Program-made: the position numbers and the translations under genes
Part shown: piece after piece, positions 26,620 to 34,071 of the stretch
Numbering within the stretch: the first letter of the stretch is position 1
Layout: every line of letters starts with the position of its first letter
Source of the DNA: Bacteroidota bacterium
GTDB taxonomy: Bacteria > Bacteroidota > Bacteroidia > NS11-12g > UBA955
DNA: 35,352 nucleotides
NCBI GenBank assembly: GCA_027490055.1
Contig: JAIXYV010000031.1
Coordinates: forward strand, 1-35,352
Reading direction: 5' to 3'
Notes under the pieces: model-generated
Seen by the model: the letters and a program-made list of their open reading frames with translations, nothing else
Databases searched by the model: none
Told to the model about the DNA's origin: nothing

Positions 26620-27453
26620 ATGTTTACCATTCTGATCCCGACCTGGAACAATCTGCCCTACTTAAAAGTTTGCGTAGACAGTATTATCAAGAACTCGACT
26701 TTCAGTCATCAGATCATTGTACACATTAACGAAGGACACGATGGCACTAAGGAATGGGTTGAAGAACAAGGACTGGCGCACACCTTCAGCGATCACAATG
26801 TTGGTGTTTGCAAGGCCCTTAATCAGGCATCCCGATTAGCGACCACAAAATACATCTGCTATTTTAACGATGACATGTATGCTTTACCGGGCTGGGACTA
26901 CCATCTGGCAAAAGACATAGAAAGCATTGGTCATAAAAACTTCTTCATTTCTGCTACCATGATAGAGCCTAAAAAAGGCAAGGATAAGAACATCATTCAG
27001 GGGCATGATTTTGGCGATCTGAGCAATTTCAGAGAGCGTGAATTGATTCAGAATTATAAGGATTTGAGCATGCACGACTGGAGTGGCGCCAGCTGGCCTC
27101 CCAATGTTGTTCCAATTGAATTATGGGAAAAAGTGGGCGGCTATAGCGACGAATTCAGTCCGGGTATGTACAGCGACCCCGACTTCTCGATGAAACTCTG
27201 GGAGGCTGGTGTGAGATATTTTAAAGGCATTGGCGAAAGCAGAGTTTACCATTTCATGAGTAAATCCACTGGTAAAGTCGACCGCAACGATGGCCGTAAA
27301 ACCTTTATCAGAAAATGGAAAATTACGCCAGGCTATTTCTACAGAAACATGCTGAAAATGGGTCATGAGTGGAAAGGCGAGTTAAAAAATCCATTCAAAG
27401 GTCTCTTCTATCTCGCCTCTAAACTCAAGGTGTTTTATAAGTCTGTTTTCTAA
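26620..27453 (+). CDS. Family 2 (GT-A) glycosyltransferase
   Basis: 277 residues, cytosolic, no membrane helix. N-terminal GT-A nucleotide-sugar domain: MFTILIPTWNNLPYLKVCVD, then INEGHDGTKEWVEE, and the metal-binding acidic cluster in CYFNDDMYALPGWD (DD at about 88-89). Later segments GASWPPNVVPIELWEKVGGY and SPGMYSDPDFSMKLWEAGVR are typical acceptor-side elements of GT2 enzymes. Donor and acceptor are unknown; no polysaccharide or LPS cluster surrounds it. It is a single-gene unit read divergently from the threonine dehydrogenase gene and its stop codon interlocks with the convergent T9SS gene. Confidence 0.88.
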   Translation: MFTILIPTWNNLPYLKVCVDSIIKNSTFSHQIIVHINEGHDGTKEWVEEQGLAHTFSDHNVGVCKALNQASRLATTKYICYFNDDMYALPGWDYHLAKDIESIGHKNFFISATMIEPKKGKDKNIIQGHDFGDLSNFRERELIQNYKDLSMHDWSGASWPPNVVPIELWEKVGGYSDEFSPGMYSDPDFSMKLWEAGVRYFKGIGESRVYHFMSKSTGKVDRNDGRKTFIRKWKITPGYFYRNMLKMGHEWKGELKNPFKGLFYLASKLKVFYKSVF

Positions 27454-28922
27454 TTTGACTGCTTAACAAATCGCGCTGTATAACAGCGGGTGTCAGTCAT
27501 TACTTTTAGACAATACATGCCATCAGTTAAAGCAATGATATCGATGGCCTCTCCTACTGAATTTTTTCCTGATAAGATCAGCTTACCTGACAAATCAAAA
27601 CATTCGAAGGTATAAGCTTCTGTAAAATCAGAAATCGTTAATTGATGACTGGCAGGATTGGGATATACATTTAAACTGGCAATGGTATTAGATGCTAAAC
27701 CAGAACCAAAACTACAGCCAACATAAACAGTGCGACAAATCTGAGTATCACAACCATTCAAGGTATCGCTGATGGTTAAACAAACCTTTTTGAAACCCTT
27801 GCTCGCAACTGCTTGTCGCATATACGTTGAGTTAGAACTGACAGTAGAATCGACCGTCCATTTGACTGTATAAAAATTAGCTGCTGCAGGGTTTTTAAAG
27901 ATGAGTTTACCCACTACACCTCTAAATGGTGATGCCCCCATATAATAACAGGAATCGGATAACACTATATTGCTAATTTGAGGCTGAAATGGCAGACAAT
28001 TAATACAATCAGCAAAGACGGTTTTACAAATAAAGGTATCACACATCTTAACTGTATCTGTAATTCGAACGCAGATCTCGTAATTGGTTTTTGAATACAC
28101 CATTCTGGAAGTGCTGTAGTAATTAGCACCAACTGGAGTGTTGTTAATGTACCATTGGTAGCGATAACTTAAATCAGGCGTACCATTCATAAGTACCGCG
28201 CCTTTTACAAAATAGTTCTTCTTGTTTTGAATACACGAATCATTGGCATAGAGATAAATATTTTTAGCTTTAAAATTACAATTATTAATACATGTTACAT
28301 TAAATGTATTGCATCTTGAAGTATCGCAATTATTAAAGGTATCTATAATATCGACACACATTTTATAGGTGCCATTTTTTGTAATGACCTGCATAAAATT
28401 ATACCCACCCGTTTTCCTTAAAGTATCGTTGATATACCATTTTGTCTGAAACCTGCCGAAGGTACCTCCATTGGTGCTCAGGTTGCAATTAATGGAGTTG
28501 TTTTGGATAAAGGAATGGTCTTTTTTACAGCTATCTTCAAAATCAGCGAGAATGGGTAATGCATTCCAGTCGCAATCCTTAAAACAGTTAAAGGTAATTT
28601 GTTTGGTAATGATGGTATCGCAATTGTTATTATTGTCTTTCAGATAAAGCTGAACCAGATAAGTGCCGTTGGATGCGGGATAATAGAGGTAGGTTGACTG
28701 AGAGGACACCCAGTTAATCTGAGAGCCCAGCACGCTCCACGAATATTGAATACCGCTGGTATTGGCTAAAAAGACACTCCCGTTAAGTGTCTTGTAATTG
28801 CCGCTGCAATTCTGTGTGACTGAGAATTGTTGAATGCGCGATTTCCAGTTACAGGCTGCTTCAGAATGTAAAGCAGCAAAAAAGATAAATGCCAATAAGG
28901 ATGCTTGTCTAAAAATTTTCAT
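27450..28922 (-). CDS. Secreted Cys-rich repeat protein with T9SS sorting domain
   Basis: 490 residues from the ATG at 28922. Signal peptide MKIFRQASLLAFIFFAALHS followed by EAA. Then four repeats of about 90-100 residues, each ending in a pattern V/C-x-x-I-x-D-T-x-x-x-C-D-T-x-x-C-x-T then Cys (examples CVDIIDTFNNCDTSRCNTF, CVRITDTVKMCDTFICKTV, CLTISDTLNGCDTQICRTV; the first repeat is more diverged). The final about 75 residues (LNVYPNPASHQLTISDF ... CFDLSGKLILSG ... ALTDGMYCLKVMTD ... FVKQ) form a type A sorting domain. The repeats look like PKD/Ig-like modules held by disulfides, suggesting a surface protein. The extension beyond 28922 to a TTG at 28955 would be encoded by an 18-base T tract (a run of Phe) and is rejected. 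Confidence 0.8.
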   Translation of the reverse strand: MKIFRQASLLAFIFFAALHSEAACNWKSRIQQFSVTQNCSGNYKTLNGSVFLANTSGIQYSWSVLGSQINWVSSQSTYLYYPASNGTYLVQLYLKDNNNNCDTIITKQITFNCFKDCDWNALPILADFEDSCKKDHSFIQNNSINCNLSTNGGTFGRFQTKWYINDTLRKTGGYNFMQVITKNGTYKMCVDIIDTFNNCDTSRCNTFNVTCINNCNFKAKNIYLYANDSCIQNKKNYFVKGAVLMNGTPDLSYRYQWYINNTPVGANYYSTSRMVYSKTNYEICVRITDTVKMCDTFICKTVFADCINCLPFQPQISNIVLSDSCYYMGASPFRGVVGKLIFKNPAAANFYTVKWTVDSTVSSNSTYMRQAVASKGFKKVCLTISDTLNGCDTQICRTVYVGCSFGSGLASNTIASLNVYPNPASHQLTISDFTEAYTFECFDLSGKLILSGKNSVGEAIDIIALTDGMYCLKVMTDTRCYTARFVKQSN

Positions 28923-28925
28923 ATT

Positions 28926-28943
28926 AAAAAAAAAAAAAAAAAA
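28926..28943 (-). repeat. 18-base homopolymer (T on the coding strand) just before a start codon
   Basis: Eighteen A on the plus strand, ending three bases before the ATG of the Cys-rich T9SS gene. Upstream on the minus strand lie nested inverted repeats (GCAATT with AATTGC; TGACA at 28978-28982 with TGTCA at 28967-28971), so the tract could also be the U-run of a terminator for the tolC-type gene. Confidence 0.8.
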
Positions 28944-28998
28944 TAGACGAAGCAATTTACATTATGTGACATTTTACTGTCAGAAAGATTTAATTGCT

Positions 28999-30387
28999 TT
29001 AATTTTTATACAACAAACCTGCCGCATACTCGGCCATGATAAAAGCTTTACGGTTCTTAACCGCTATATCAATTAACTTAATTTGAGCAGAGATGTAACT
29101 GAGTTCGCGGGCATTGATCATAAACAAAGAACTTTCCCCATTATTGAAAATATTCTTCTCGGCTTCCAGCAAATCGGCATAGTTTCTAACTGTTCCATTA
29201 TATAGTTCCAGCTGATCCGCTGTTGCTGTATATTCATTAATAGCAGTATTGGTCTTTGTTAAAATCTCGTTAGACTTAAATGCCATGTTATATTCCGTCT
29301 CTTTGATTTTGAAACGGGTGATAGCCAAATCTCCGCGCTCTTTACGAAACAACAAAGGCATGCTGAAAGTCATTCCAAATTTATAATCGTTAGTCGACCA
29401 GTTGGCAACTTGATTACCTGCCGTTACAGGCTGATAGCTTAAATTAAGTAGAGGTTTCAGTTGCTCTTTCTTCCATCTTTTCTCGACCAGAAGCTGATCT
29501 CTTTTCAGGTTATAAATTTGGTATTCCGGATGCTGCAAGTACCATTCATTTCCGAGCATTTCAATCTCATCAGCAATAGACAGAACAGAATCTAACTCAA
29601 CTGGTATGGTATTCAAACCAAGCTCAACTGGACGCAGAGCATTATCCCATAAGTATAAAGACAATTCGACGCCAGCATTTTTAAATGCCAGTTCAGATTG
29701 CATTAAACTAAGTTGTCTTTCCTGAAATTGAATAGACGCTTCGAGGGTATCCACACTAGGACGATCGCCGAACTCAGCTGCAGATTTTACAGCTTGTAAC
29801 CTTTCGAAGGCCGCTACTTTAGCCTGACGAAAAACATTCAACTGATGGTATGCGGCAAACCAGTTCCAGTAAGATTTACCGGCATCGTAAAGCAATTGAT
29901 TCAGCAGCGCCTGACGTTCCACTTTACCAGAGTTCATTTGAATTTTTGCTTGTGCCAATACCGCTCTTCTTTCGTCAATGAGTAAACCCTGACCAACAGA
30001 AAGTGTCAACCCAGCATACAATAATCCAGCATCTGGCAGGGCATTTTCAGGGTTTAAATTTAGACCGCGGTTATAGTCGTATCCCGACTTAAGTTCTAAT
30101 CCCGCCATAGTTGGAATTGAAACACCAGCACTCATCAAATTAAAATAGTTGGTATTTTTATAGAACTTATCTTCGGTGGTGGCTTTTAGTTTAGGATCAA
30201 AATTTCCTCTTGCTTTTTGCAGATAGGCCTTAGCATAATCATTTCTTAAGTCGGCCGTTTTAGCCAAAGGATGATTCTTTAGCACTATTTGAAAATACTG
30301 ATCCACACTCATTCGAATTGCGGTATCCGATTGTGCACTTAGAACAAATGAGGCAGACAGGCAAATTAATAAGAGTAATTGTCTCAT
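28999..30387 (-). CDS. TolC-family outer-membrane channel protein
   Basis: 462 residues. Signal peptide MRQLLLLICLSASFVLSAQ; the mature protein is mostly long amphipathic helices with two related halves, as in TolC trimers (for example LRNDYAKAYLQKARGNFDPK in the first half and the repeated FKSNEILTKTNTAINEYTAT / LLEAEKNIFNNGESSLFMIN in the second; the ending N-x-G-x-x-S-x-x-x-x-N-x-R is a TolC-family signature). Together with the adaptor and ABC protein encoded upstream it should form a tripartite conduit across the envelope. Its ATG overlaps the adaptor stop (ATGA). Confidence 0.88.
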   Translation of the reverse strand: MRQLLLLICLSASFVLSAQSDTAIRMSVDQYFQIVLKNHPLAKTADLRNDYAKAYLQKARGNFDPKLKATTEDKFYKNTNYFNLMSAGVSIPTMAGLELKSGYDYNRGLNLNPENALPDAGLLYAGLTLSVGQGLLIDERRAVLAQAKIQMNSGKVERQALLNQLLYDAGKSYWNWFAAYHQLNVFRQAKVAAFERLQAVKSAAEFGDRPSVDTLEASIQFQERQLSLMQSELAFKNAGVELSLYLWDNALRPVELGLNTIPVELDSVLSIADEIEMLGNEWYLQHPEYQIYNLKRDQLLVEKRWKKEQLKPLLNLSYQPVTAGNQVANWSTNDYKFGMTFSMPLLFRKERGDLAITRFKIKETEYNMAFKSNEILTKTNTAINEYTATADQLELYNGTVRNYADLLEAEKNIFNNGESSLFMINARELSYISAQIKLIDIAVKNRKAFIMAEYAAGLLYKN

Positions 30388-31733
30388 TTCTTAGCTGGTT
30401 TTTGAGTGCCTTTATTTTTATAAAAATCGGGAGGGAAACCGTTAATTTTTCGCCATAGTTCGTACCATACCGGCACATCTTTCAAGAGCATCATAGAGTT
30501 AACACCGCCACCAATTCTGAGGTCTTTAGGCCATGGATGATCGTTTTTATCTGGCACTACGAGTAGACGGTATTTACCGTTCTCGCTGATGAAATTATCG
30601 ATGGCAACTACTTTACCGCCATAGGTACCATAGGAAACACTAGGCCATCCAGAGAATACAATTGCCGGCCATCCATCGAATTGTACTCTGACGATACTTC
30701 CTTTTTCTAAAAGAGGCACATCTATTGGGGCTACATAAATCTCGACCGCTAATTCGAAGTTAGCTGGCATGATACTAATAATCTCAGCACCTTCTTTAAT
30801 GGTTTCGCCCAGACCGGTTTTAATTGCCTTGGTAATGAAACCATCCTGAGGAGCGAGGATATAATACATCCCCGAGCGCACCACATAATTGACGTACTGG
30901 TTTTGCATTTTAGTAACGGCCGCTTCAGCATCATACATATTAGACATGGCTGAAAACTTATCTGATTCACTTTTAGAAATCTTATCTGAGTAATCGGCAT
31001 TAATAGACGACAGTTCAATCTTAGCATTTAAAATCTGATTGCGTGAGCTAAGCAATTTGTTTTCCTGAGCAATCACTTTAGCCTGAGTTTCCTGAAGTTT
31101 CAATTTACGCGACTCGAGATCGGTGAGTGATTTCAGACCTTTGGCATAGAGTTCCTTCATACGGGTAAACTGTTCGTTTGCCACTTCCAGATTGGTTCTG
31201 GAAGCCACTAAATCTATACTATCACTTTTTACCGTCAGGTAAGCCTGCATCAGCTTGTTATACGCTTGTTCCCGCTTAAGTTTTAGTCCTTGAGTAAGTG
31301 CGAGAATCTGATTATCATTAGCTTTAATTTTTTCCATGTAAGAACTAACGCTAAGCTCTTTCGATTTCAATTGCTCGTCGGTTCTCTCGATAAGGTTTGG
31401 ATCGAAATAATCGTCTTTAATCTCTGAGATAAAAAGTATGGTATCTCCTTTTTTAACCCTGTCGCCCTCCTGCACATACCACTTCTCTATTTTACCTGCA
31501 ATAACAGAATGAATGGTTTGAGGACGTTGATCAGGCCTTAAAGCCGTGACATTTCCGAGCGCTCGTATGTTTTGTGTCCAGGGTAGCATAAGCACTACGA
31601 CTATCGGAATAAAGAGGAACAGAATCAGTCTTGGAAGAATGCGCATAGTTGGGCGCGTTTCCATAAGAGCAAAAGATCTGTAGTGCGCCTCTTTTATTTT
31701 TATTTTAATACTGTTAGGTGAAATGTTCAGCAT
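30384..31733 (-). CDS. HlyD-family membrane fusion (periplasmic adaptor) protein
   Basis: 449 residues: cytoplasmic N-terminus (about 30), one membrane helix (ILPRLILFLFIPIVVVLMLP), a split lipoyl domain (VIAGKIEKWYVQEGDRVKKG with its partner YYILAPQDGFITKAIKTGLG), a long coiled-coil hairpin between them (about 115-265) and a beta-barrel domain (IYVAPIDVPLLEKGSIVRVQ). This is the architecture of type I secretion/efflux adaptors. The gene starts 2 bases after the ABC gene stop and overlaps the TolC-type gene by 4 bases, so the three are one translational unit. Confidence 0.88.
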   Translation of the reverse strand: MLNISPNSIKIKIKEAHYRSFALMETRPTMRILPRLILFLFIPIVVVLMLPWTQNIRALGNVTALRPDQRPQTIHSVIAGKIEKWYVQEGDRVKKGDTILFISEIKDDYFDPNLIERTDEQLKSKELSVSSYMEKIKANDNQILALTQGLKLKREQAYNKLMQAYLTVKSDSIDLVASRTNLEVANEQFTRMKELYAKGLKSLTDLESRKLKLQETQAKVIAQENKLLSSRNQILNAKIELSSINADYSDKISKSESDKFSAMSNMYDAEAAVTKMQNQYVNYVVRSGMYYILAPQDGFITKAIKTGLGETIKEGAEIISIMPANFELAVEIYVAPIDVPLLEKGSIVRVQFDGWPAIVFSGWPSVSYGTYGGKVVAIDNFISENGKYRLLVVPDKNDHPWPKDLRIGGGVNSMMLLKDVPVWYELWRKINGFPPDFYKNKGTQKPAKK

Positions 31734-31735
31734 AA

Positions 31736-33394
31736 TTATTTTTCAGTTTTAGATGATTTAACTTCAATGACTTGTTGACAGGCATTTTTCATATCTTCAT
31801 TAACAGAGGAGCATATTACCGTCCATGGTGTATCAGAAGCTGTCAGTGATGAAACGATTTTCAGACGATCATTAATCTCTATAAACTCCATGCCATTTTC
31901 AATCAGCAATAATCTAGGGCGGTGAACGATACTACGGGCCAGTAATATTTTTTGGATAATACTTTTCGGCAGTTTCATGCCATCGACACCGAGGCGGGTA
32001 TCCAAGCCATACGATTGTTGTTGAACAAAATCAGTAAGATTCGTTAATCCTATTGCCCAAAGCACATCGTCATTAGTTACACCTGGTCGCCCAAGAGTAA
32101 TATTATCCAATAAAGATCCATCAAAAATATGTTCATGATTTAAGCGAACACCAATTCTGGCATACAACTCATTAGAATTAAAATTGGCCATTGGGAGCTT
32201 ATCAATACAGACTGTTCCTTCAGTGGCTTCGTAAATGCCCGCGATTATGTATAGTAAAGATGTTTTACCCGAGCCACTTTTTCCAGTGAGACAAGTATGT
32301 TGCCCTGCTTCAACCATCATTGAAAAATCATTAATAACTGGCTTACCTGTATCACTATGTGTAAAGCAAAGATTTTTTACTTCGACACTTAGTGGTGCGG
32401 TGTCATCGATAGTTTGAGAACCATTAGACGTAGAATCTATTTCAAGGTCGGTTACATATCCGATTTTCTCAAGTGCCGTAATGACATCATAAATATTTTC
32501 AATACTCAAAATCAGTTTCTCAACCGAATTAATAACGAGGAGAATAATGATCTCGGCAGCGATAAACTGACCAATATTCATTTGCTGATTCAGCACCAGC
32601 AGTCCTCCAATTAAAAGTAATCCAGCAGCAACCAAAGATTTGAAAATTATAAGCAGCAGATATTGCTGGCGAAGAACCTTAAAATGGCTTTCGCGCGATT
32701 CTAGATAACCCATCACATTATCATCCGTTCGCTTTACTGGCAAATCAGAAGATGGCGACATTTTAAAAGACATGCGTGTATTCGCAATGTCTTCAAGCCA
32801 GGATACCACCTTGTATTTGTATTTAGACTCTCGCATACTGGTTTGTAGGCCTGCAATTCCAGTATACTTAAATATTGCTAAAACCAGCAAGAACAGTCCT
32901 AGTCCAAATAAGATGAAGAAAGGGTGATAAAACGACAGCAGAATAAGACCGAAAATAATCTGTAAAGTAGCAGTTGAAAAATCAATCAATACTTTAGACA
33001 TGCCCTTTTGAATAGATACCGTATCGAAGAATCTGTTCATAAGCTCAGGAGCACTTTCCTTATCTATTACAGAAGCTTTAATGCGGGGCAAACGGAAGGT
33101 GAATTCGAAAGCCGCACGAGCAAATATTTTTTGTTGTAATGTTTCGATGATACGCATCTGTGCCAATTGCAAACCACCTGTTAATAAAACTCCCAGCACA
33201 ACAATAACGACCAGTACTATCCAGGAAGTTGAAACCTGTCCACCCTGAATAAGGTTGACGATTGCCTGAATACCCAGAGGAATTGAGAGATTTACCAATC
33301 CATGAAAGATGGCATAATAGTAGACGCGACCAATATCTTTTTTATCAGCTTTGAGCAGTCGCCTGAAACGTTGTATTGGAGTGAGTAATTTCAT
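31736..33394 (-). CDS. ABC transporter of a type I-like export system with degenerate ATPase motifs
   Basis: 552 residues: exporter-type membrane domain (about 20-310, no C39 peptidase domain in front) and a nucleotide-binding domain (about 335-545). Walker A is intact (GKSGSGKT, 371-378) and the catalytic-Glu position is kept (Glu499), but other motifs are not: the Q-loop aligns as RLNHEHIFDG (Asn419 for Gln), the signature LSGGQ is replaced by LPKSI (475-479), the Walker B aspartate is Ile498 (RLLLIENG), the D-loop SALD is absent and the switch His is Ser (VICSSVNED, about 526-534). Membrane segments GLVNLSIPLGIQAIVNLIQG and MNRFFDTVSIQKGMSK resemble Bacteroidota transporters paired with HlyD and TolC proteins. 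The ATG overlaps the TetR gene stop by one base. Confidence 0.85.
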   Translation of the reverse strand: MKLLTPIQRFRRLLKADKKDIGRVYYYAIFHGLVNLSIPLGIQAIVNLIQGGQVSTSWIVLVVIVVLGVLLTGGLQLAQMRIIETLQQKIFARAAFEFTFRLPRIKASVIDKESAPELMNRFFDTVSIQKGMSKVLIDFSTATLQIIFGLILLSFYHPFFILFGLGLFLLVLAIFKYTGIAGLQTSMRESKYKYKVVSWLEDIANTRMSFKMSPSSDLPVKRTDDNVMGYLESRESHFKVLRQQYLLLIIFKSLVAAGLLLIGGLLVLNQQMNIGQFIAAEIIILLVINSVEKLILSIENIYDVITALEKIGYVTDLEIDSTSNGSQTIDDTAPLSVEVKNLCFTHSDTGKPVINDFSMMVEAGQHTCLTGKSGSGKTSLLYIIAGIYEATEGTVCIDKLPMANFNSNELYARIGVRLNHEHIFDGSLLDNITLGRPGVTNDDVLWAIGLTNLTDFVQQQSYGLDTRLGVDGMKLPKSIIQKILLARSIVHRPRLLLIENGMEFIEINDRLKIVSSLTASDTPWTVICSSVNEDMKNACQQVIEVKSSKTEK

Positions 33395-34071
33395 TAGTGT
33401 TTAATGGTTTTTAGGACCATATCCATGAAGAATTTACAGATATAATCGTTGTTTTTTTGTTTATTGGTTAAGGCTGGCAAATGTTGAGCATAGAACTTCT
33501 GAAGGTGAACACTTTCGATAACACTAGACACCAGCATGTTGGGATACTTATATTTTGGCGCGATTTCTTGTATGATGAGACTAACGCGTCCAACGAATTG
33601 TTTATAGGCCATAAAGGCGCCTTCCTGATTAATTTTATCCACGGATTTACAGAGATAAGATTTAGACGATTCAAAGTTAACGATTCTACTTAGCAAAAAG
33701 ACATTAAAATTACCAGAGGTGTCTTCTTTTTCAAGTTCCTCTGTAATGAGTATAATCGCTCTTTCGAGACGTTTCTCAGGCGATTGGATATTATTGAGCG
33801 ACAGAACGAGGCGGTATTCCATCCATGCCCAGTACCAGGAAGACAAGTACATTAACAGCTTGCTTTTACTTTCAAAATACCTGTAAACAGAGGCCTCATT
33901 GGAACCAATTTTTTGACCAAGTTTGCGAAAAGTAAAATCCTCAAAACCAAGCTCGTCTATCATCTCGATACCATGGCGAATGATATTAAGTCCCAGCTCG
34001 CTCGACTCAGGATCCTTGATATACAAGGAATCACTTACCTGCAAACGTATTTTAGAAAGAATGGACTCCAT
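33394..34071 (-). CDS. TetR-family transcriptional regulator
   Basis: 225 residues. The N-terminal helix-turn-helix is clear: GLNIIRHGIEMIDELGFEDF then TFRKLGQKIGSNEASVYRYF followed by ESKSKLL, the classic TetR F/Y-R-x-F-x-x-K ending (residues about 27-72). The rest is a helical ligand/dimer domain with no close family recognised. It is the first gene of the ABC-HlyD-TolC operon and probably controls it by binding its own promoter, where a perfect palindrome overlaps the -7 region. Having the repressor as leading gene gives negative autoregulation and links export of a compound to its sensing. Confidence 0.88.
   Translation of the reverse strand: MESILSKIRLQVSDSLYIKDPESSELGLNIIRHGIEMIDELGFEDFTFRKLGQKIGSNEASVYRYFESKSKLLMYLSSWYWAWMEYRLVLSLNNIQSPEKRLERAIILITEELEKEDTSGNFNVFLLSRIVNFESSKSYLCKSVDKINQEGAFMAYKQFVGRVSLIIQEIAPKYKYPNMLVSSVIESVHLQKFYAQHLPALTNKQKNNDYICKFFMDMVLKTIKH

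Follow-up and report, generated by a model that had tools for sequence, protein, structure and literature searches.

A HlyD-TolC-linked ABC exporter of Bacteroidota with a degenerate, twice-lost nucleotide-binding domain and a probable energy source other than ATP

The window, i.e. the whole stretch of 35,352 bp that was analysed (contig JAIXYV010000031.1, assembly GCA_027490055.1, Bacteroidota), carries an operon on the reverse strand in the order TetR, ABC, HlyD and TolC. The ABC gene is a 552-aa open reading frame at 31736-33394 (-) and matches both ABC Pfam domains above their cut-offs (ABC_membrane, PF00664, 2.5e-10, 41 bits versus 28; ABC_tran, PF00005, 7e-14, 53 bits versus 25). The original prediction had described an intact frame in a tightly coupled operon and both were confirmed: TetR stop and ABC start overlap, the gap between ABC and HlyD is 2 bp, and HlyD and TolC overlap by 4 bp. 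The membrane domain (TMD) and nucleotide-binding domain (NBD) of the ABC protein and the other features are the following.

33394..34071 (-), TetR-family regulator that opens the operon, its stop overlapping the ABC start (Pfam TetR_N, 3e-7)
31736..33394 (-), degenerate ABC exporter half-transporter, 552 aa (Pfam, homologues, AlphaFold2 model, PCAT1/HlyB fold)
32429..33394 (-), TMD, residues 1-322, strongly conserved (36-77% identity with relatives; conservation among 175 members)
31739..32392 (-), degenerate, fast-evolving NBD, residues 335-552 (absent in 12 relatives)
32762..32767 (-), F210-K211 of coupling helix 2, predicted NBD contact (F210 in 160/167 full-length and 1/12 NBD-less members)
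32552..32554 (-), E281 in TM6, a carboxylate inside the membrane (99% of full-length members have E/D, as do 12/12 NBD-less ones)
32486..32488 (-), D303 in the TM6 helix (164/167 full-length, 12/12 NBD-less members)
32261..32284 (-), Walker A GKSGSGKT, residues 371-378, the sole intact catalytic motif (GK[ST] in 155/167)
32138..32140 (-), Q-loop position, Asn419 (Gln in 15/167)
31958..31972 (-), signature position, LPKSI (475-479) replacing LSGGQ (LSGGQ in 0/167)
31895..31900 (-), Glu499 in place of the Walker B Asp, followed by Asn500 in place of the catalytic Glu (alignment)
31805..31807 (-), H-switch position, Ser530 (hand alignment; His in 13/167, 12 of these 13 in the outgroup)
30384..31733 (-), HlyD-type periplasmic adaptor, 449 aa (Pfam HlyD_3; TIGR01843 below cut-off)
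28999..30387 (-), TolC-family outer-membrane channel, 462 aa (Pfam OEP, 3e-26; adjoins in relatives)

ABC, HlyD and TolC genes are found together here, as in type I secretion gene sets. The ABC protein misses the NCBIfam cut-offs for type I secretion and peptide exporters widely (permease/ATPase models TIGR03375, 133.7 versus a cut-off of 693, and TIGR01846, 121.8 versus 725.55), and no dedicated secreted-substrate gene for type I secretion was recognised. Downstream of the operon, at 27450-28955 of the window, lies a gene whose product has a type IX secretion sorting tail (PF18962).

The NBD of the window protein had been predicted to be almost entirely non-canonical. Its Walker A is indeed perfect, the Q-loop Gln is replaced by Asn, LSGGQ by LPKSI, and a canonical D-loop (SALD) is missing. 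The switch His corresponds to Ser530 in a hand alignment; MAFFT instead places a Val at this position. At Walker B the prediction was off by one residue, having assigned an Ile to the Asp position and a retained Glu to the catalytic position. When PRLLLIENGMEFIE is aligned with PAILVLDEATSALD, Glu499 falls at the Walker B Asp position and Asn500 at that of the catalytic Glu. With the register corrected, the catalytic site is therefore more degenerate than had been stated, and the window protein has LPKSI, Glu, Asn and Ser in place of the motif set of ATP-hydrolysing NBDs. The contrast drawn with the canonical exporter encoded at 10719 of the window holds (GGSGGGKS, Q, LSGGQ, D, E, SALD and H).

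By fold and descent the window protein is an ABC exporter (type IV). An AlphaFold2 model of the 552-aa protein (mean pLDDT 87) matched PCAT1 with a TM-score of 0.91 and HlyB with 0.89, and both Foldseek and VIA (Z about 30) pointed to PCAT1, HlyB and MsbA. The closest solved TMDs by sequence are those of ComA (7e-10 for the TMD) and PCAT1, and the lineage probably descends from peptide or T1SS-type exporters. HlyB-HlyD-TolC, PCAT1, ComA and the NHLP exporters (TIGR03796) are alike in fold and in their HlyD and TolC partners, the sequence relation being distant. These exporters have canonical ATPase motifs and hydrolyse ATP.

In a first search, covering the window's genome and 38 relatives, 25 full-length orthologues were found outside the window (35-62% identity) together with 2 TMD-only proteins. 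The NBDs of all 25 are similarly degenerate, which rules out both a sequencing error and a lone decayed copy, the cases that had been named as fatal to the prediction. A TMD profile (A1) detected the family in 98 of 395 genomes sampled phylum-wide and, within the class, in 214 of 396, nearly always as one copy per genome. A named genome collection yielded 573 stretches with matches, and almost all of the 80 inspected were labelled Bacteroidota. In most relatives the ABC gene has TetR, HlyD and TolC genes as neighbours, and HlyD is also strongly conserved, with about 43-69% identity to ingroup relatives, NBD-less loci included. The homologues and their shared operon thus support the earlier suggestion that the protein marks a subfamily conserved in Bacteroidota and accompanied by HlyD and TolC. 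Our literature searches, with few subscription papers within reach, found no description of this ABC family.

Some loci are arranged differently. At L173:4980-6833 and L188:4065-5885 (family f50) no HlyD or TolC neighbour was present in the stretch examined; the neighbours are proteins of 750-850 aa, a differing operon context for the exporter. At L033 the operon adjoins a gene for a bacterial sugar transferase (PF02397) and one for gyrase B, unlike in the window. L031, L032, L034 and L035, from the window's family, have a similar layout; the two neighbour genes were tested in L033.

A set of 167 distinct NBDs was used to count motifs. Walker A (GK[ST]) is kept in 155 and broken in 12, the latter scattered over several lineages, while LSGGQ occurs in none and the Q-loop Gln in 15. 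The Walker B Asp position is held by Glu in 106, Asp in 28 and Lys in 20; the catalytic Glu position by Asp in 103, Glu in 34 and Asn in 19; and the H-switch position by Asn in 43, Ser in 34, Lys in 20 and His in 13. The LPKS wording, proposed as a mark of the subfamily, was rejected as such: LP[KR]S was seen in only about 23 of the 167, as one among many signature variants, and Ile and Ser at the B and H positions were not conserved either. Among the 16 deep-branching outgroup members Asp is kept in 16, Glu in 15 and His in 12, but the Q-loop Gln and LSGGQ in none; in the ingroup (n=151) not one NBD has Asp, Glu and His together. By sequence, the subfamily is without the residue set required for ATP hydrolysis, and the loss was stepwise. 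In the simplest reading the signature and Q-loop would have gone first, followed by Walker B, the Glu and the His. A few members (L017-L019) still have Q, D and E; in these, slow hydrolysis of ATP might be possible.

Could the full-length proteins nevertheless be slow or unorthodox ATPases that rely for hydrolysis on a Glu or Asp in the Walker B and catalytic places, with the NBD-less members as derived exceptions? Glu or Asp is present at the Walker B Asp position in 134 of 167 and at the catalytic position in 137 of 167, the NBD is under purifying selection (see below), and the outgroup has kept D, E and H. We regard this reading as unlikely, however, given that the signature is lost in all members and the Q-loop Gln and His in nearly all of the ingroup, that Asn occupies the catalytic position of the window protein, an Asn shared by 19 members, and that Walker A is broken in 12 members and the NBD lost twice.

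Complete loss of the NBD was found in 12 genomes. In each, a TMD-only protein of roughly 315-339 aa ends in a clean stop, HlyD begins at or just after this stop, and TolC follows; one of the loci lies in a single-contig genome of 7.0 Mb (G287). The TMD tree divides the 12 into two clades. The first covers two genera in the family to which the window's genome belongs (support 0.985), the second ten genomes of three families (support 0.998). From this tree we infer two independent losses, yet 10 of the 12 genomes form a single clade. The closest full-length relatives of both clades have a broken Walker A (GxxGxGRT with K to R in L024-L026, GQNGSGKH with GKH in L172), as would be expected if ATP binding disappears before the domain does. 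The coupling helix 2 motif is lost along with the NBD: F210 is retained in one NBD-less member, the Arg usual at position 205 drops from 151 of 167 full-length members to 1 of 12, and in clade I the coupling-helix segment is deleted.

A profile search for the NBD across the 12 NBD-less genomes detected no stand-alone family NBD. The best score was 168 bits, in ordinary exporters of ~600 aa, against 288-296 bits for the positive controls. Since no such NBD was detected, its supply in trans seems unlikely, and a split of the NBD into a separate gene was rejected on the operon content and on this genome-wide search. An ABC NBD gene near L161, considered as a split-off NBD, encodes a separate 282-aa protein with an ordinary score. 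Two further candidates for NBD loss were discarded: L227 runs into a contig end, and L229 (G731:C268) has a frameshift between TMD and NBD, the NBD continuing in another frame. The frameshift in L229 is either an assembly error or ongoing loss.

An active site could also come from a canonical ABC subunit encoded elsewhere, in a heterodimer or mixed complex. Degenerate sites are usual in heterodimeric exporters such as TM287/288, TmrAB, TAP and BmrCD, in which one degenerate site is tolerated and has a proposed structural or regulatory role (PMC7756269), and further ABC exporters are present in the genomes studied here. Those heterodimers keep one consensus site, whereas both sites would be degenerate in the presumed homodimer of the window family. 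Judged by gene content, window-type operons hold no second ABC gene and genomes nearly always a single family copy, and the coupling-helix motif is lost in the NBD-less members; we therefore consider such pairing improbable. With its clean loss on two occasions and the retention of HlyD and TolC, the NBD is, by sequence, dispensable. As the NBD was lost outright twice and Walker A is damaged in 12 of 167, ATP would not be essential to the system. The original prediction had overlooked these losses, and also that the TMD is the conserved part.

The conservation of the two domains was compared with that in the canonical exporter. In 15 genomes that encode both exporters, the NBD/TMD identity ratio averaged 0.56 for this family and 1.19 for the canonical one; the NBD here was less conserved than the TMD in 15 of 15 genomes, the reverse of the canonical exporter, where the NBD was at least as conserved as the TMD. 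In 40 of 40 independent close pairs NBD dN exceeded TMD dN (1.2-4.8 fold). The TMD had a dN/dS of about 0.01-0.05 and the NBD one of 0.02-0.2, the latter given only where synonymous change was unsaturated. The NBD is thus relaxed yet still under purifying selection, which shows that it still matters where it is present. The pattern would fit an NBD that keeps ATP binding and folding but not catalysis, and together with the kept Walker A it fits the predicted ATP binding with slow or no hydrolysis. The membrane domain is the conserved core of the system.

These values bear on the view that the gene is a decaying pseudogene or non-functional remnant, for which the progressive motif loss, the two complete NBD losses and the one frameshifted copy (L229) might be quoted. 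The low dN/dS in both domains, frames that are broken in no more than a handful of the roughly 195 members, and an operon conserved across a phylum leave next to no room for it; the selection and frame data refute it, and the statement that this is not obvious decay was borne out.

Within the TMD, P39, K130, S190, K193, G263, G275, A279 and K310 are invariant in 175 of 175 members. E281 in TM6, a Val in the canonical exporter, is Glu or Asp in 173 of 175, and D138, H237, K252 (K/R), E292, K293 and D303 are nearly constant, NBD-less members included; the charged residues of the TMD are unchanged in the TMD-only members. At equal divergence, and with approximate TM limits, 6 conserved ionisable TM residues were counted here versus 3 in the canonical family. 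D303 precedes the Walker A Lys by 74 residues, the same spacing as between E314 and K388 of LmrA (numbering from PMC2704374); D303 is the only residue to share the E314 spacing. The charged residues, E281 included, are already present in the outgroup with its more intact NBD, and a search for new intramembrane acids in the NBD-less clade found none, in which SbmA differs. For these two reasons the charges are no specific evidence of proton coupling; as read from the alignment, they would permit ion coupling.

We tentatively propose a tripartite exporter independent of ATP hydrolysis, in which the NBD would be a dispensable ATP-binding regulator and ion-motive force is the favoured drive. The ABC-fold membrane domain, assumed to be a homodimer, would form the inner-membrane part of a TetR-controlled pump with the HlyD adaptor and TolC channel, descended from peptide-type ABC exporters but having lost their dependence on ATP hydrolysis. 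Where kept, the NBD may bind ATP as a regulatory or structural gate rather than as an engine. With less certainty, movement of the substrate could be coupled to ion-motive force via the conserved E281, K252, D303 and E292/K293. A small molecule, lipid or peptide is a plausible substrate, to be removed under TetR control.

A different account of the same data takes TMD, HlyD and TolC as an ATP-gated or passive conduit, in which efflux runs downhill through a gated channel or a facilitator and ATP binding by full-length members does no more than open or stabilise the path, comparable to the use of ABC domains in CFTR or SUR. The Walker A kept in 155 of 167 members despite the lost hydrolysis motifs speaks for it, as does a coupling helix 2 motif conserved only with the NBD present; LmrA currents begin upon ATP binding, not hydrolysis (PMC6155054), and function without an NBD would be possible if the conduit were constitutively open. 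An ungated path through the inner membrane would be costly, however, NBD-less members would require another gate, and the strongly conserved charged network suggests more than a pore. We hold this account to be possible but doubtful. The pump is probably powered by an energy source other than ATP, and we favour export driven by ion-motive force, by analogy with SbmA, LmrA-MD and MsbA-MD.

LmrA and MsbA without their NBDs (LmrA-MD and MsbA-MD) carry out transport driven by ion gradients (PMC2704374, PMC4979069, PMC6155054), for which LmrA requires the TM6 carboxylate E314 (PMC2704374). They resemble the NBD-less members in being NBD-free membrane domains of ABC exporters, but they are laboratory truncations of working ATPases, whereas the truncation here is natural and maintained. 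SbmA/BacA (SLiPT) proteins use protons to import peptides and stem from YddA-type ABC transporters; SbmA has an ABC fold that naturally lacks the NBD, is proton-powered and has lost the coupling helices as well (PMC13316013). The likeness lies in the type IV ABC membrane domain, the conserved acidic residues and, in the NBD-less members, the loss of both NBD and coupling helices. The window protein itself retains both, the absence of which characterises SLiPT proteins. SbmA moreover works as an importer and has an additional TM0 domain and a glutamate ladder, whereas the window family matches PF00664, belongs to an export operon with HlyD and TolC, and includes intermediates, with decayed NBDs, that are still alive. 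In three TMD-only members and the window TMD, PF00664 alone gave a meaningful Pfam match and SbmA/BacA gave none. On such sequence comparisons SbmA would be a parallel case and no close relative.

A further possibility, which we put forward with some reserve, is that the lineage switched from ATP to ion-motive force inside the HlyD-TolC pump and that every step of the switch survives today, in near-intact ATPases, members that only bind ATP, members with a dead Walker A and members with no NBD. It would then be the second transition of the SbmA type, independent of the first, and the first that we could trace in a trans-envelope exporter. The kind of transition is already known; a trans-envelope exporter and surviving intermediates would be new. 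The debate on ABC membrane domains without an ATPase has so far concerned mainly the engineered LmrA-MD and MsbA-MD, and SbmA, whose intermediates are mostly gone. Here natural NBD-less exporters, Walker-A-dead sisters, and ATP-binding-only and near-canonical relatives share their operon context, and for this reason the energy source, the role of the coupling helix and the order of loss are directly testable. For annotation a caution follows, this being a common Bacteroidota gene that matches ABC ATPase models and is probably no ATP-driven pump.

Long forms of the protein were also encountered (L168-L172, L174-L182 and L185-L187), of roughly 700-840 aa with 150-260 extra N-terminal residues. 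The extra segment gave no Pfam match in the three long forms tested (L168, L176 and L178), and in length it would agree with a vestige of the C39 or C39-like domain that peptide exporters have.
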